From contig NZ_FQYI01000011.1 of NCBI RefSeq assembly GCF_900141665.1, positions 1-64,000 on the forward strand: a DNA stretch of 64,000 nucleotides, written 5' to 3'. Origin of the DNA: Cruoricaptor ignavus (GTDB taxonomy: Bacteria > Bacteroidota > Bacteroidia > Flavobacteriales > Weeksellaceae). Each line of letters begins with the position of its first letter. Within the stretch, counting starts at the first letter, position 1. The notes below the pieces were generated by a model. The model was not told where the DNA came from and made no database searches. It saw only the letters and a program-made list of their open reading frames with translations. This document shows, piece after piece, positions 5,212 through 14,772 of the stretch. The translations under genes and the position numbers were made by a program.

Positions 5212-5829
5212 ATGTCAATACAGGTCAATAACATTAAGGTTGGTAATACGTTAATTTATTTAAGAAATAGATTACCAGAACTGTATTTAACTAAGGCTCT
5301 TAAACTTCTGTATATTCTTGACGAAACTTCTATTAAAGAAACTGGAGTACCTTTCACTTGGATGGACTACAAGGCTTGGAAGATGGGACCAGTGCCTAGT
5401 GAATTATATGATGAATTACAGTATAAAATCCCGGCAGGCGAAAGTGATAGTGTTTTATCAAAATTTGTTGATGTAAAGAAAATTTCTGCGCCACCTCACT
5501 ATGAATCAGATCTCCTTTATCCAATTGAAAGTGTTAGCGAGTTTTGTGATGATGAATTTTCAGATTACGAGATAGAATTAATGGATAGGATTCTTAATGA
5601 ATATGGTGATAAATCCGCTTCTGATATTATACGGATGCTTCACGAAAAAGGTTCCTTATGGGATAAAGTTGTGCAGGATAATAATTTGGAATATCAATTT
5701 CGTTTAATGCAGAATAAGAGCAATTTTACAATTCCTTTCACTGACCTGCTTAAAGATGACGAATTAAAACAGATGGCTTACGCATCGGCTTTTGATTCAA
5801 ATGATATTTTTTCAGAATTTTCTATATAA
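5212..5829 (+). CDS. Panacea (DUF4065) domain protein, probable antitoxin
   Basis: A 205-residue protein whose N-terminal half carries the Panacea/SocA (DUF4065) signature. It reads KALKLLYILDETSIKETGVP (about residues 27-46), then MDYKAWKMGPVPSELYDEL, where MGPVP is the hallmark turn. Panacea domains are known as versatile antitoxins that neutralise unrelated toxins encoded next to them. The downstream gene starts only 2 bases after this stop codon, so the two are almost certainly translationally coupled. Residues 100-205 are a less conserved acidic extension. The antitoxin role is inferred from domain and gene order. Confidence 0.8.
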   Translation: MSIQVNNIKVGNTLIYLRNRLPELYLTKALKLLYILDETSIKETGVPFTWMDYKAWKMGPVPSELYDELQYKIPAGESDSVLSKFVDVKKISAPPHYESDLLYPIESVSEFCDDEFSDYEIELMDRILNEYGDKSASDIIRMLHEKGSLWDKVVQDNNLEYQFRLMQNKSNFTIPFTDLLKDDELKQMAYASAFDSNDIFSEFSI

Positions 5830-5831
5830 AA

Positions 5832-6284
5832 GTGTTTACACCTGGAAGTATCTATTTTATTAAAAAGTATGAATATGAAGATGGTGGTGCTCCTTCTGAT
5901 AAATTGTTAATCGTCGTCTGCATTGATTCTGAAAATTCTTTGATTTTAAGGGCTCTTACTACTTCACAACAGAAGGTTCCTGATTCAATGTTAAATCACG
6001 GTTGTACCACCAATGATATTTTTTCTTTTTATCTTTTCTTAGGAAACAGAATTGTTGGTGTTGATAAAGATGGTAATGATTTTTCCTTCGATCTTAATAC
6101 TTTTGTTTTTTTTAGAGACAATGTTAAAATTATTCCATATGCAAAAATTTTAAATTACTATCCCGATAGAATAAATTTACTTGCTACACTAAAGAATGAC
6201 GAATTGAAAAGATTTTTGAAATGTATCACTTCAAGTAAATTATTAGGTCGAAAAGAAAAAAAATTCCTCTTAGAACATAAATAG
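5832..6284 (+). CDS. Uncharacterised protein, candidate toxin partner of the Panacea protein
   Basis: A 150-residue protein starting with GTG at 5832, 2 bases after the Panacea stop. I do not recognise a named family with certainty. The N-terminus (FTPGSIYFIKKYEYEDGG, then DKLLIVVCIDSENSLILRAL) has the beta-strand rhythm of MazF/PemK-type SH3-like barrels: a Gly-x-Ile strand, an acidic loop, a hydrophobic strand, and a downstream strand with a Thr/Ser cluster. The classical MazF RPV motif is absent. The C-terminus is lysine-rich (LLGRKEKKFLLEHK). Toxicity is inferred only from pairing with a Panacea domain. It could also be a cargo-specific partner without toxin activity. Confidence 0.6.
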   Translation: MFTPGSIYFIKKYEYEDGGAPSDKLLIVVCIDSENSLILRALTTSQQKVPDSMLNHGCTTNDIFSFYLFLGNRIVGVDKDGNDFSFDLNTFVFFRDNVKIIPYAKILNYYPDRINLLATLKNDELKRFLKCITSSKLLGRKEKKFLLEHK

Positions 6285-6405: not shown

Positions 6406-7633
6406 ACTTTCCCACCATTCGGGCGCAGCCCTCATTCCTCATCCGCCTTGCCATCGCTAATTTCCCACCCACCCATTTCAGCGGTTGCGGAAAAAATGCC
6501 GTGCTGAATACTGATTTTTTCGGTGGCTTACAGCTGCTATTCCGCAGGGGAGTGCGGTCTTGCATCCTCCGGTGCCGATAGCCTTCACAGCAGTTCCGGC
6601 TTCCGCCACTCAGCCACCTATTTTTCAGCGGACATCCCGGCATTTTTTCCGCGGATTTTTTGTCCCGCTTTATCGTAGCACCTCTTAATTTCCCACCCAC
6701 CCATTCCAGCGGAGCTCTTTCAGGCTGCTGTTCTTTTCTATTTCCCTTCGTGCTGCGCCAGGTTTCTTCGGTGCATCAGAATTTTAGTGGTCTGATGCGG
6801 TTTCTGCACCTCATCCACCAGCCTCGCACACGCGCATACCAGCCTTCCTTGCTTCCGTCGCTAAATATCGGTCAGGCAGTCAGGCATCCTTTTTTTTCAG
6901 CGGCTAAAGGTTTGTTTTGTTGGTCTGCCGGCCGCCTTACCGCTACCGCTCCATTCGCTGCATCAGGCAGCTATTTTTCCCTCCGCCGTTTTTGGTCAGC
7001 AGCCTTCTTTCGCGGATTTATTTACCCTCTCATTTTAGCACCACACTATATACTTTTTCCTTTCGCCTTTTTCCTTTTGACTTGGCTCTTGGCTCTTATA
7101 TCTAATATCTGAAATCTAATTTCGGTTTCCCACCCACCCGTTTATAGGTGCGCGGTTATGCTGCTCCCTGATAGTATCGCGGCGCTATCGGTGCAGCACT
7201 ACACGCCGGTGTAGGTCTGCACCTGGTGTGCCGTATGCCTTCACAGCAGTTTAGGCAGCCGCCACACCGCCAGCCGCTAAAGTCAGCGGTGCAGCATTCA
7301 CCGCGCGCCATTTTTGTCCCACTGTTTTTTCCCAACTTGTTCCCAACCTTCTTTTTCAGCGGAAGTCTAAAATTCAAAAAAAGGAAAGCAATTTAGACGG
7401 TTCCCTTTTTCCTTTCCTTCCGTGCTGTAAAGGTCAAGCCCTCCGGGTTTTTCAATAAAATCTGCATCCTGCGGATAGTATTTTTCAAAAAAACCTTGAC
7501 AGCACTTCCCACACCGTCTGAAAATTGGCTTTCTTTTTTCTTTTTTTTCCGTTTTTTTCTTTTTTCTTTTGAAAAATTTTCGCCTTCCGCACAAAAATTT
7601 CCCAAAAACCAACCGCCAGCTTTAATTTTGCCC
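6406..7633. repeat. Gene-free region of diverged direct repeats
   Basis: About 1.2 kb without a credible gene. TTTCCCACCCACCC recurs at 6461, 6689 and 7126. GCCTTCACAGCAGTT recurs at 6581 and 7238, with a weaker copy (CCTTGACAGCAC) near 7494. TCAGCGG recurs at several places (about 6626, 6897, 7272, 7350), and TTTTTGTCCC at about 6657 and 7311. The order of these words is kept in at least two units of roughly 230-250 bases, so these are old copies of one larger sequence. Composition is richer in C than neighbouring intergenic DNA. A heptamer microsatellite (about 7054-7098) and a pyrimidine-rich stretch (7530-7580) are embedded in it. Confidence 0.6.
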
Positions 7634-7663
7634 AAAAAAAAAGCCCTCCATATCGGAAGGCCT
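7634..7663 (-). terminator. Rho-independent terminator of the MARQ/DUF5675 operon
   Basis: On the minus strand, AGGCCTTCC (7663-7655) pairs with GGAGGGCTT (7649-7641) over 9 positions including two G-U pairs, loop of 5, followed by a run of T (plus-strand A at 7634-7642). It lies just past the last gene of the minus-strand cassette. Confidence 0.85.
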
Positions 7664-7681
7664 AAAAATGTTCCCTAAAAG

Positions 7682-7864
7682 TCACCACAACTTATACCTG
7701 GAACAAAGATTTTTAAAAAATTTTATCATTATCCGCCACAAAACCGTTGCGGTAAAACTGCATATTCCGCCCAGCGAAGCCAAAACCGCGGTTTTTATTA
7801 TATCCTCGCTGTTTATGTTTACAAAGATAGTTAAAAGTGCGCCAAACGCTGTGCTTATTTTCAT
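7682..7864 (-). CDS. Small single-span membrane protein of the phage-like cassette
   Basis: A 60-residue protein with one or two hydrophobic stretches (ISTAFGALLTIFV and TAVLASLGGICSFTATVLW) and a basic, aromatic C-terminus (KFFKNLCSRYKLW). The start at 7864 (MKISTAFG) is preferred. The longer frame from 7987 begins with Lys/Arg/Gln-rich residues that are only a translation of the heptamer repeat. It is the last gene before the terminator at 7634-7663 and follows the holin-like gene. A second holin or spanin-like role is possible but unproven. Confidence 0.55.
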   Translation of the reverse strand: MKISTAFGALLTIFVNINSEDIIKTAVLASLGGICSFTATVLWRIMIKFFKNLCSRYKLW

Positions 7865-7878
7865 TGAATTATCCACAA

Positions 7879-7990
7879 CCTCTCTTGTTTCTTGGCTCTT
7901 TTGCCTTTTCCTTTTTACTTGGCTCTTGGCATTTTTGCTTTTTGCCTTTTGCCTTTTGCCTTTTTCCTTTTTACTTGGCTCTTGCATTTT
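7879..7990. repeat. Heptamer microsatellite block
   Basis: Built of the words TTTGCCT/GCCTTTT, CTTGGCT and TTTACTT in tandem, between the holin-like gene and the last gene of the cassette. The same words recur at about 7054-7098, 8634-8704, 49827-49862, 50354-50378 and 51541-51580. Confidence 0.75.
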
Positions 7991-7993
7991 TGC

Positions 7994-8209
7994 CTACTCA
8001 TCTTCATATACTGCCGCCTGGCTTACAGCGGATGCAATGCCACCGGCAACAGCCAGATATCCAGCTATTTTAACTATTAACGCTGGAAGTCCAATTTCTG
8101 CAGATAAAACTACACTCCCAGCTGCAGTAAGCCCAAGTCCAATATTTCGCAAACGCTTGAAAAATTTTGGTGTCGGCTCTTTCAGCCGTTCAATTAAATT
8201 TGCTTTCAT
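7994..8209 (-). CDS. Holin-like small membrane protein
   Basis: A 71-residue protein. It starts KANLIERLKEPTPKFFKRLR, a basic amphipathic segment, then has two Ala/Gly/Leu-rich hydrophobic stretches (NIGLGLTAAGSVVLSAEIG and LIVKIAGYLAVAGGIASAVS) and a short acidic end. Small proteins of this build sit beside DUF5675 genes in Bacteroidota prophages and phage-derived islands, where they are presumed holins. The ATG overlaps the DUF5675 stop codon by 4 bases (8206-8209), so the pair is translationally coupled. Function is inferred from build and context. Confidence 0.7.
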   Translation of the reverse strand: MKANLIERLKEPTPKFFKRLRNIGLGLTAAGSVVLSAEIGLPALIVKIAGYLAVAGGIASAVSQAAVYEDE

Positions 8210-8619
8210 CGCGCTTTCCTTATCGTTAAAATCACATCTTTTTTGGCTTCCAGCAGCGGAAAAACCATCTTTTTCACCTTCTCGTTGGCAACGCGGGATC
8301 GTAGTCCCACGCCTTCACCAACAAGTTCAGAAACCGGCGCTATGCAGCCGTGCAGTTCCTTTAAGGCATTATTTGCAGGATGAAACAAAATAAGAGCCCT
8401 GCCTGGAACATCACTCACCAGCAAATGGTAACCTCTTTTTTCGGTATATCGCTTTTTTAAACGATAACTTCCTTCCGGAATGCAGGATTTGCCACGCATA
8501 TTGTCACGCCACGGCAACTCAATCGTTTTGCAGATTTCTTCCGCTGATAAATACAGCGTTCCGTTCGTTCCGCCTTTATAATACCGCCGCTCTAAAATAA
8601 GTTCCATATCCCGCACCAT
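8206..8619 (-). CDS. DUF5675 family protein, phage-associated
   Basis: A 137-residue protein (or 133 if it starts at MELILER, 8607). It follows the DUF5675 pattern: a TNGTLYL strand, ICKTIELPWRDN, the CIPEGSYRLKKR turn, LILFHPANN with a conserved His, and HGCIAPV. The H-x-x-N and GCI elements resemble the catalytic architecture of L,D-transpeptidase-like folds, but no function has been shown for the family. DUF5675 is common in Bacteroidota phages next to holins. Here it is second in a minus-strand operon between the MARQ-type protein and the holin-like protein, suggesting a lysis or release module. Confidence 0.8.
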   Translation of the reverse strand: MVRDMELILERRYYKGGTNGTLYLSAEEICKTIELPWRDNMRGKSCIPEGSYRLKKRYTEKRGYHLLVSDVPGRALILFHPANNALKELHGCIAPVSELVGEGVGLRSRVANEKVKKMVFPLLEAKKDVILTIRKAR

Positions 8620-8633
8620 TATTTCCAGCCCTT

Positions 8634-8704
8634 TTGCCTTTTGCCTTTTGCCTTTTGCCTTTTGCCTTTTTACTTTTTACTTTTTCCTTGGCTCTTGGCT
8701 CTTT
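8634..8704. repeat. Heptamer microsatellite block
   Basis: At least five tandem TTTGCCT units followed by TTTACTT and CTTGGCT units. The block fills the whole gap between the DUF5675 gene and the MARQ-type gene. Confidence 0.8.
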
Positions 8705-9454
8705 CTACACCACCTCAACAATCTGCAAACTGTTAAATGCACCGTTTTTTAGTGGGTACATCTCATTGTTCACCTCTTGCAGGAATTCCACGCCAAGCAC
8801 CAGGAAGGCAGTATTTGGCGTTCCTGCAGGTAAAGTCAAATCCAGGTTAAGCCCCTGCACAGTAGAAGCTTCCCACGGCATTATCGCAGTTTCCTGGGAG
8901 GATACCTCATAAGTTTCTTCATCAAAATCCACCGCTGCAGCTGCCGCCAGGATTCGGAAGTGCGTAGTTCCGCCCGGTGCGTTCACCATCGTAGTAGGAG
9001 AGAAGTCAGGGATGCTTACAGAAGCAGTTCCTGCCGCTTTATCCAGTGCTTTATTCCACGGCATATAAAGCGTAGTCCCCAATTTACCGTTAATATTGAA
9101 GTCAAAACCAATCAAAATTTTAGGATCGCCATCCTTCACCGTTCTTTCGCCTCTTGGGTTGGTCGTGTCCGCCTGGATTACCGTTACCATATCCTTTGTT
9201 AATCGGCTCACCATTCGGGAATCGCTTGCCTTCTGCAATTGCGGCCTGATGGAATTCCTCAGAGCCTTACCAGCTTTTCCTGCACGGCCAAATTCATTTC
9301 CGTTCTCTCTCGTTCTTTGAAACTTCGGGTCATTTTTAATCCTTTCCGCGGAAACGCCACCTTTTTCTCTTGCCAAATAACCATCCTGGGATTTGTAGAA
9401 GGTAATATCTCCAATCGTCCCATCCAGCTTGATAATACTTTTTTGTCTTGCCAT
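8705..9454 (-). CDS. MARQ-type 249-aa protein of unknown function
   Basis: A 249-residue soluble protein with no signal peptide or membrane helix. The N-terminal third is a strongly patterned block: KLDGTIGDITFYKSQDGYLA, then EKGGVSAERIKNDPKFQRTR, then EFGRAGKAGKALR. Proteins with this opening are, from memory, frequent in Flavobacteriia beside DUF5675 and holin-like genes, but I know of no assigned function. The opening recalls DUF6266 proteins without being one clearly. Residues 120-249 are beta-rich and look like one or two Ig/jelly-roll-like domains. It is first in the cassette operon, preceded by an A-rich leader (CATTAAAAAAACTTAAAAAA). A structural or exported particle component is one reading. 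Confidence 0.65.
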   Translation of the reverse strand: MARQKSIIKLDGTIGDITFYKSQDGYLAREKGGVSAERIKNDPKFQRTRENGNEFGRAGKAGKALRNSIRPQLQKASDSRMVSRLTKDMVTVIQADTTNPRGERTVKDGDPKILIGFDFNINGKLGTTLYMPWNKALDKAAGTASVSIPDFSPTTMVNAPGGTTHFRILAAAAAVDFDEETYEVSSQETAIMPWEASTVQGLNLDLTLPAGTPNTAFLVLGVEFLQEVNNEMYPLKNGAFNSLQIVEVV

Positions 9455-9577
9455 TTTTTTAAGTTTTTTTAATGTTAAAATTCATCGGGATTCTGCGCCC
9501 AATCCCAAACACACTGTGATACCACACCGCAAAATTTCAAATAATATCAACGCCAGCCACCACAGCACCGCCGCACA

Positions 9578-9598
9578 CGGCAGAAAATGCCGTTTTTT
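9578..9598 (+). terminator. Short terminator-like hairpin
   Basis: CGGCA (9578-9582) / TGCCG (9588-9592) with loop GAAAA and six T after it. It points on the plus strand in a region where the nearest upstream gene is on the minus strand, so it could end an antisense transcript. The stem is only 5 bp. Confidence 0.4.
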
Positions 9599-9634
9599 CC
9601 GCATTATATCCTATCGCCCTCTATTGCATAGGTT

Positions 9635-9642
9635 TACCTTTG
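9635..9642 (+). promoter_or_regulatory. Bacteroidota -7 promoter element
   Basis: TACCTTTG matches TAnnTTTG and lies 64 bases before the ATG of the small regulator at 9707. Between them lie repeated GTATAG/GTATGG words (9671-9700) that could be operators. Confidence 0.45.
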
Positions 9643-9706
9643 TAATGCCTTATAATCCACCCCTATATAAAGTATAGCCTAAGTATGGATAGTGTATAGT
9701 ATTAAT

Positions 9707-9898
9707 ATGAAAAGAATGTGCATTTACCCAAAGGACATTATGCAAATCACTGGCAGAAGTGAGCGATACAGCCGCGAATTATTGCAGAAAATCCGCACGG
9801 ATTTAGGCAAGAATGAGCATCAGTTTATAAGTGTCCGGGAGTTCTGCAGTTGGGCAGGCCTCAATTACGAAGAAGTTCGCCAAATTCTTAAAAATTAA
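9707..9898 (+). CDS. Small predicted DNA-binding protein
   Basis: A 63-residue protein: MKRMCIYPKDIMQITGRSER, then YSRELLQKIRTDLGK, then FISVREFCSWAGLNYEEVRQ. Small Bacteroidota proteins with this KDIMxITGxSERxSR opening look like a truncated helix-turn-helix of the excisionase/MerR kind, but I know no characterised member. The start at 9707 is preferred over 9692 because the extra residues (MYSIN) are encoded by the upstream repeat. It diverges from the MARQ cassette (start 9454), and repeated GTATAG-like words lie just upstream. It may control the cassette and itself. Confidence 0.65.
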   Translation: MKRMCIYPKDIMQITGRSERYSRELLQKIRTDLGKNEHQFISVREFCSWAGLNYEEVRQILKN

Positions 9899-9934
9899 CC
9901 TGTTCAAAATTCATACAGGTATCAGTTTATTTAT

Positions 9935-9942
9935 TACCTTTG
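9935..9942 (+). promoter_or_regulatory. Bacteroidota -7 promoter element
   Basis: TACCTTTG, a full match to TAnnTTTG, opens the stretch that ends in the terminator at 10092-10130. No reading frame lies between them. Confidence 0.5.
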
Positions 9943-9946
9943 TCGC

Positions 9947-10130
9947 ATCTGCTGACGAAAAAATTCAGAAAGTGGAAAAGGTTACCGATTCGGATACCTG
10001 TTTTGTTTAACTTAAAGCAACTGTTAATATTACTGATTTAATGGGGTGGTGGCATCTTCCTGGAGAAACCACAAGAAATTAAACGGGAAAGACGCTGGTA
10101 AATTACTATATTTATCAGCGTTTATTTTTT
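9947..10130 (+). ncRNA. Candidate non-coding RNA or der leader
   Basis: About 180 bases between a -7 promoter element (9935-9942) and a strong terminator (10092-10130), with no open reading frame of note. Two internal hairpins are visible. AGGT..CCG (about 9979-9986) faces CGG..ACCT (about 9991-9999). GTGGT (about 10047-10051) faces ACCAC (about 10067-10071). It ends 11 bases before the der start codon. It could be a free small RNA (6S-Flavo or Flavo-1 class should be tested) or an attenuating leader of der. No known class was recognised by eye. Confidence 0.45.
10092..10130 (+). terminator. Strong Rho-independent terminator before der
   Basis: ACGCTGGTAAAT (10092-10103) pairs over 12 positions (one G-U) with ATTTATCAGCGT (10110-10121), then TTATTTTTT. 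It is on the same strand as der and only 11 bases upstream of its ATG. Confidence 0.85.
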
Positions 10131-10140
10131 ACTGAAACTT

Positions 10141-14586: not shown

Positions 14587-14754
14587 AATCCCGTGCCTCT
14601 TTGTCAAAGAGATTTTCACCAGAATCCGTGTCTCAGTGTTTTATCGATATAATTGAAAAAAATCCGTGTCTCAGTGTTAGAGAAAAACTCACCAGAATCC
14701 GTGTCTCGGTGTTTTTAACCAAAATAATTGACAAACAATCCGTGTCTCAGTGTT
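14587..14754. repeat. Right flanking repeats of the GxxExxY gene
   Basis: AATCCGTGTCTC(A/G)GTGTT occurs at 14623, 14661, 14696 and 14737, preceded by a related AATCCCGTGCCTC at 14587. Copies 1 and 3 share the prefix TCACCAG, and copies 2 and 4 share ATAATTGA, so a unit of about 73-76 bases has been duplicated. The block runs up to the LuxE-like gene. Confidence 0.85.
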
Positions 14755-14772
14755 AAAGAAAAAAATAAAAAC

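Follow-up and report, generated by a model that had tools for sequence, protein, structure and literature searches.

What kind of genetic unit is the compact four-gene cassette that lies near the start of a contig of Cruoricaptor ignavus? The stretch analysed here, 64,000 nucleotides of contig NZ_FQYI01000011.1 (the window), carries between positions 7682 and 9454 the genes of a protein termed MARQ, of a protein of family DUF5675 and of two small membrane-type proteins. A preliminary description had placed there a four-gene minus-strand set with its own terminator, and both the open reading frames (ORFs) and a stem followed by a T run were confirmed (Table 1); it had read the set as possibly a domesticated, self-standing release or toxin-delivery device. 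Our analysis points elsewhere: the cassette is very likely the end module of an island that integrates at tRNA genes. The whole explanation, in which it forms the integrase-distal end of an island inserted at tRNA-Phe and has the function proposed below, is probable.

Islands that carry the module

The four-gene set is a real, recurrent module. Its order is beyond chance: all 18 loci that have the window type of the DUF5675 gene carry it as the next gene downstream of MARQ and in the same orientation. The counts come from 83 other MARQ loci, many with short flanks and some near copies of each other, and are therefore rough. The co-occurrence of MARQ and DUF5675, whose absence the preliminary description had named as speaking against its reading, was found in 27 of them (18 with the window type, nine with a second type). 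The 71-residue protein is encoded in 36 and the 101-residue one in 28, and all three window-type companions come together in 17. A gene for a small helix-turn-helix (HTH) protein is present in 55 loci, in 53 of which it is divergent from MARQ and within 1.4 kb of it; genes of a DUF6876 cluster (one member scanned) and of an SNase-type nuclease cluster (two members scanned) are each seen in 15. MARQ relatives occur in 16 of 59 genomes, the source genome included, and at 54 loci in one genome collection; a profile search of 33 chosen genomes returned, fragments included, up to 15 matches in one genome and five or six in four others. One match was obtained among 72,556 plasmid records. Embedding in complete prophages, the other observation that the preliminary description had named as speaking against it, was not encountered: MARQ was not found in 50,697 phage records, and none was confirmed in viral contigs.

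How the module is carried can be read from three relatives (genomes G031, G020 and G086). Each has an element of 17 to 32 kb that is flanked on both sides by an exact repeat of a 3' end, that of tRNA-Phe, tmRNA and tRNA-Ser, respectively; the module marks one end of the element or is close to it, and a tyrosine integrase marks the opposite end. The exact copies of the tRNA-Phe 3' end in G031, at 1371703 and 1394691, are 23 kb apart, one of them at the intact tRNA-Phe, and enclose an integrase (9e-16), RteC (1.8e-81), HTH_17, a DnaD-like protein, a DnaC-like ATPase, a DUF6088 protein with AbiEii, a PLD-like protein, PIN_12, DUF6943 and the full MARQ module. An exact 17-base copy of the tmRNA 3' end is found 16.7 kb away in G020, a genome whose tmRNA tag matches Weeksella; the integrase, RteC, Xis-, DnaD- and DnaC-like relatives of the G031 proteins are followed there by cargo with ThiF/DUF6791 and multiubiquitin proteins, DUF6943, membrane proteins, DUF5675, MARQ and the HTH gene. 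In G086, whose island was read in part in its middle, the 3' end of tRNA-Ser recurs as an exact 18-base copy 32 kb farther along the same contig. Here MARQ lies 0.6 kb from the repeat copy, the integrase (1.4e-141 to that of G031) lies beside the tRNA with Xis, DnaD-like and DnaC-like relatives near it, and no RteC was found. A search for duplicated attachment sites as exact repeats inside the 10-kb loci gave none that was convincing; the partner copies are 17–32 kb away.

A circular form is also on record. The 25,320-bp circular sequence of Marivirga sp. BKB1-2, typed as non-mobilizable, holds an integrase piece (PF00589, 3e-16), HTH_17, a DnaD-like relative, a DUF5675 gene, a relative of the 71-residue protein, pieces of MARQ and the HTH gene, with several genes interrupted. 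Between the HTH gene and the integrase, GTGTCCA repeats lie on both sides of a tRNA-like 3' end (the tRNA recognised by eye). This arrangement is that expected of joined island ends.

In the window, the unit is larger than 7682–9454 and also comprises the HTH gene, the short direct repeats and the tRNA-Phe 3'-end remnant. Many loci show 11–12 bp direct repeats beyond the HTH gene and then a tRNA or tRNA-like end. The repeats of the window are, judging from their position in relatives and from the circular form, probable arm-type integrase sites. The attachment-site remnant equals the 3' end region of the source genome's own tRNA-Phe, on contig C24, at 18 of 19 bases, 15 of them inside the tRNA, and G031 has this stretch in the corresponding position. 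An intact tRNA-Asn or tRNA-Val is near the HTH end in nine of 75 sequences (ARAGORN; two are near-identical contigs of one metagenome-assembled genome, MAG), different tRNA genes are found upstream of MARQ, at most about 2 kb away, in loci L102, L104, L052 and L047, and a tRNA gene lies within 2 kb on the HTH side in five of a set of 40 copies. On C24 the tRNA-Phe is followed by RteC (4.9e-71), HTH_17 and DnaD-like and DnaC-like proteins up to the contig end, the latter two matching their counterparts in G031 (9.2e-93 and 1.2e-80). We infer that the window holds the distal island end (7388–10076) and C24 the tRNA-proximal part. The window's copy is probably stranded, because no integrase was noticed beside the tRNA-Phe on C24. 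The window contig (C21) begins inside a transposase-like ORF (1–540), which probably explains the assembly break.

Proteins of the module

Pfam, PHROGs and NCBIfam scans at the cassette covered its four ORFs and the HTH gene, five in all, and DUF5675 is the only cassette ORF with a family match above cut-off: PF18925 at 8.8e-28 (96.9 bits against a curated cut-off of 26.7), besides phrog_1501 at 1e-17. The second DUF5675 type, of which one member was scanned, matches PF18925 as well (6.4e-26, 90.9 bits). In a fold comparison of the predicted model (predicted local distance difference test score, pLDDT, 87.5), the 36 best rows range from Z 9.3 to 6.0, followed by a drop to 2.4, and 35 of these 36 are enzymes of the L,D-transpeptidase fold; row 31 (4xxt) is titled otherwise. 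Unmatched models often reach a best Z of 7–8, and a Foldseek search by itself produced no significant match (best E 0.18). On this modelling, DUF5675 has an L,D-transpeptidase (YkuD-like) fold. It resembles YkuD-fold enzymes in a conserved His and a GC motif, and His65, His80 and Cys92 are invariant in ten sequences, His80 and Cys92 being the putative catalytic residues, but unlike these enzymes it is a short, single-domain protein. Its motif reads GCIAPV, as against the classical SHGC(R) of L,D-transpeptidases. DUF5675 is a predicted, and probable, cell-wall enzyme.

Could the cassette be the lysis end of a decayed prophage? Relatives of DUF5675 are found in phage records, 116 for the window type and 156 for the second type. 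In the crAss-like phage cr106_1 a second-type relative, annotated in the record as L,D-carboxypeptidase/transpeptidase, adjoins a gene for a lysis regulatory protein/holin, a pairing that resembles a DUF5675 enzyme next to small membrane proteins. However, that enzyme belongs to a 102-kb virus and lies near the small terminase subunit, whereas the membrane proteins of the MARQ module have no phage match. With MARQ itself lacking a match in the phage records and viral contigs, and with the G031 and G020 islands showing no virion gene in those of their proteins that were scanned or read, we regard a decayed prophage as very improbable. The preliminary description's view of a reduced set rather than a prophage holds to the extent that the set is a recurrent module with a phage-type wall enzyme and not a complete prophage; its further assumption that the set stands by itself is not supported. 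As a separate observation, DUF5675 relatives are encoded in the microvirus genomes MW202581.1 and MH992181.1, of about 5 kb, as a possible wall-lysis gene of single-stranded DNA phages.

MARQ, the constant gene of the module, would have according to an AlphaFold model (pLDDT 88.7) a flexible N-terminus, a β-hairpin (17–30), helices (36–94) and a C-terminal β-sandwich (about 120–249); the family alignment comprises 48 sequences. Structure matches (Z 6.5 and below) are at the level of common arrangements, and no viral structure matched below E 0.001, the best one having E 1.9e-3 and a TM of 0.25. A jelly-roll capsid protein was considered and rejected, as the model consists of a helical part and a β-sandwich with C2, Ig-like and similar domains as best matches. 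By sequence, MARQ gave nothing convincing and no family above cut-off in Pfam, PHROGs, NCBIfam and PDB, and nothing against DUF6266 (hhalign probability 0.1%, a weak test against a two-sequence profile).

A role as holins, whose build the preliminary description saw in one or two of the small proteins, is putative. The membrane nature of the 71-residue protein was judged from the sequence; three small membrane-type proteins, including a relative of the 101-residue one, gave no phage match, and neither they nor the 68-residue HTH protein have a Pfam match above cut-off. About the first 36 residues of the 101-residue ORF are encoded by an array of 7-bp tandem repeats (7898–7976). The true start of this protein probably lies near 7876, because the repeat-coded N-terminal part is missing in the 22 aligned relatives. 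The 7-bp minisatellite (CCTTTTG, with ACTTGGCTCTT ends) has scattered copies at 7017–7090, 7854–7983 and 8616–8703, one of which lengthens the reading frame of the 101-residue ORF.

What, then, of a domesticated, self-standing release or toxin-delivery device? A soluble-looking MARQ, a wall enzyme and membrane-type proteins in one operon would suit it, as would the surroundings: in agreement with the preliminary description, no capsid, tail, terminase or integrase gene was noticed by eye among the listed ORFs around the cassette. Yet the attachment-site remnant, the mobile-element context and the variable sites in relatives argue against such a device, MARQ matches no family above cut-off, and the family scans gave no sign of toxin delivery. 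In the clearest relatives the module is found at the end, or close to the end, of an integrative element that also encodes an integrase, HTH_17, a DnaC-like ATPase and cargo. We find this idea hardly credible and return to the module as the end of an island.

Possible routes of transfer

In the relatives, one island end has a tyrosine integrase, an excisionase-like HTH_17 protein, DnaD-like and DnaC-like replication proteins and often RteC. Cargo, some of it anti-phage, comes next, and the opposite end or its vicinity has DUF6943 or DUF6876, then small membrane proteins, DUF5675, MARQ, the 68-residue HTH protein and the attachment repeat. As to function, we propose that DUF5675 would cut or edit peptidoglycan and that the small membrane proteins would let it act or would open the inner membrane. 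MARQ would have its target within the cell, either the DNA of the element itself or the particles of a helper phage, with or through which the excised island would leave. Such a phage-satellite function, with an exit linked to helper phages, is in our view the most likely single mechanism, and a tentative one. The islands resemble phage satellites (PICI, P4-like, PLE, PICMI; PMC11389934) in having integrase, excisionase-like and replication genes, defence-type cargo, tRNA or tmRNA sites and no virion genes found so far; they differ in having no known helper or packaging gene. Those proteins of the G031 and G020 islands that were scanned or read include no virion gene, and the only trace of a known hijacking gene is an E 0.0088 PHROG hint of a small terminase in one G031 ORF, beside equally weak hints that are unrelated.

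Literature listings for DUF5675, DUF6266, DUF6943/DUF6876 and Bacteroidota satellites and islands showed no account of the module. That these islands form an unrecognised, phylum-wide class of Bacteroidota phage satellites, which integrate at tRNA or tmRNA genes, carry defences, have their own wall-lysis module (the L,D-transpeptidase-fold enzyme and the small membrane proteins) and a MARQ protein that redirects the particles of a helper, and bear by DUF6943/DUF6876 a structured RNA whose stem changes fast, is conceivable and rather doubtful. If the island reading is true, the MARQ sequence can serve to recognise a large class of Bacteroidota integrative islands, some with anti-phage systems; integrase-first searches would miss the many copies that lack a close integrase. 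The conserved hairpin beside DUF6943/DUF6876 is a further testable part. A wall-lysis gene in such an island would bear on how helper-dependent elements exit the cell, because satellites are stated in a recent review to have no lysis mechanism of their own (PMC11389934).

Several observations weigh against the island and the function proposed for it. No helper, packaging gene or transfer was seen, and the small membrane proteins lack a phage match. DUF5675 was not found in 56 of the 83 MARQ loci, many of them short-flanked. A tyrosine integrase lies within 20 kb in seven of 40 MARQ copies (home-made profile, up to 20 kb per side), for which reason we rejected the integrase as a constant near neighbour. 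The distance is about 20 kb in G031 and about 29 kb in G086, beyond the 20-kb limit; in seven genomes the contig of a MARQ copy of the type C score class also has an integrase, at a distance of 16 to 42 kb; and among the matches listed there is none on the contigs of the type C copies in G000:C19, G092:C31 and G096:C3, C8 and C22. Many copies without a near integrase may be decayed or helped in trans. The attachment repeat at G020:1126945 is 2.7 kb beyond the HTH gene, and the module is therefore not always flush with the island end. A supposed tRNA end beside two other G020 copies was discarded, no tRNA in that genome matching it within two mismatches, and the remaining tRNA remnants beyond the HTH gene were judged by eye only. 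The ends of C21 and C24 share no end sequence that we could find, and joining them is our reconstruction. Finally, der lies about 114 kb from the island in G031, and its position beside the island is therefore not common to both; der was not seen beside tRNA-Phe within about 1.5 kb in 30 loci, the window's own included.

Might the MARQ unit itself, of 2.4–2.8 kb, be a small mobile element moved in trans, with the larger islands as chance neighbours? Sharp-ended homology between unrelated flanks, which in itself speaks for the mobile island, extends over 3.74 kb at 94.6% between two MAGs and over 2.36 kb at 84–86% among three copies in one genome (Paraflavisolibacter). The latter and the few copies with an integrase nearby would fit such an element, but the outer border of the unit is the attachment end of a large island in G031 and G086, and the inner border, in the copies looked at, is where the genes begin to differ. 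We consider this explanation improbable. As a separate observation, we note an exact duplicate of at least 9 kb in G031 (L085 1–9065 and L086 357–9421, about 87 kb apart), which holds CBASS-type genes and a type C MARQ module and is followed by repeats of about 200 bp that differ between the copies.

A less remote, if still doubtful, alternative is that the islands belong to the NBU kind of integrative mobilizable elements and move by the conjugation machinery of a helper, the MARQ module acting at the donor surface, for example in local wall opening or exclusion. RteC, HTH_17 and Arm5/SAM5 integrases are typical of Bacteroidota conjugative and mobilizable elements, and these families are present in the islands. 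The NBU-type mobilizable elements of Bacteroides have, like the MARQ islands, an integrase, an excisionase-like HTH protein and RteC-type regulation. On the other hand, no relaxase or coupling protein was found among the G031 and G020 island proteins scanned (part of the ORFs, with no search for oriT), the circular Marivirga record is typed non-mobilizable, and elements of this sort would not be expected to carry a phage-type wall enzyme. The 10K genomic island of Riemerella anatipestifer, a species probably of the same bacterial family, is reported to have an intN1-type tyrosine integrase, an insertion at a tRNA gene, 53-bp direct repeats at both ends and an excised circle, and in its integrase, tRNA site, end repeats and circle it resembles the MARQ islands (PMC6764341). 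The excision of this tRNA-Arg island by an integrase with an intN1_C_like domain, as given in the same text, counts in favour of the NBU-kind alternative (PMC6764341).

Hairpin, cargo and further features of the window

At lower coordinates than the minus-strand cassette, the non-coding stretch 6285–7640 matches DNA that lies upstream of DUF6943 in other islands and contains a hairpin element (Table 1). Hairpins of this kind also stand upstream of DUF6943 or DUF6876 in L031–L059, L085, L088 and others, with a long stem of variable sequence and a pyrimidine (T/C-rich) tract at the end before the DUF gene; the pattern was found at 23 places, 21 of them distinct, in 74 loci and the window. In 11 relatives, 17 of 34 predicted pairs are changed on both sides with pairing kept in at least one sequence, and the window copy has a fold z of −4.14, against −5.11 and −5.04 in two relatives. 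The same signals would come from an inverted DNA repeat, and a role as RNA is putative. Rfam gave no gathering-level match in five loci except tRNA genes, and on the window stretch two weak unrelated matches and none for the hairpin.

The SocA/Panacea gene and its neighbour, at still lower coordinates, are possible island cargo. Defence genes occur near MARQ modules: a PADLOC scan of ten proteins chosen there by eye, which shows occurrence and not enrichment, identified GajA and GajB in G020, GajA near L057, AbiEii in G031 and near L059, and a CBASS cyclase and an E1-E2 protein near L085; the matches of three of the ten proteins were weak or partial (MzaB, Avs2 and ZorD). The GajA gene near L057 is external to the module, beyond its HTH end.

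Table 1. Positions of the cassette, the island end and neighbouring features in the window
Feature	Position	Strand	Basis or remark
SocA/Panacea gene	5212-5829	+	PF13274, 8.5e-22
SocA/Panacea gene and neighbour gene, candidate island cargo	5212-6284	+	Inferred
Hairpin element, as seen before DUF6943/DUF6876 in related islands	7388-7537	+	Homology, fold, covariation; DUF gene itself missing in the window
Terminator-like hairpin (stem and T run) after the four-gene operon	7641-7663	-	Terminator scan
101-residue ORF	7682-7987	-	23-sequence alignment; conserved membrane-type protein only from about 7876 down
71-residue small membrane-type protein gene	7994-8209	-	21-sequence alignment; conserved with MARQ
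DUF5675 protein gene, 137 residues	8206-8619	-	PF18925, phrog_1501
MARQ protein gene, 249 residues	8705-9454	-	ORF list; constant gene of the module
68-residue HTH protein gene, divergent from MARQ	9692-9898	+	HTH nature judged from sequence
Short direct repeats (GGTTACC / CGGATACC)	9980-9998	+	Same place as the 11-12 bp direct repeats of relatives
Attachment-site remnant, tRNA-Phe 3' end	10057-10076	+	Match to tRNA-Phe of contig C24

The terminator scan is weak by itself, with nine such sites in the stretch against 5.9 expected. On the other side of the module, the attachment-site remnant and a hairpin directly precede the start of der; as judged by eye, der lacks here (10080–10140) the conserved leader that most relatives carry. 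Farther along, at 14616–14763, two 76-nt tandem copies (88% matches) with a repeated 18-mer, AATCCGTGTCTCAGTGTT, overlap the start of the ORF listed from 14728.

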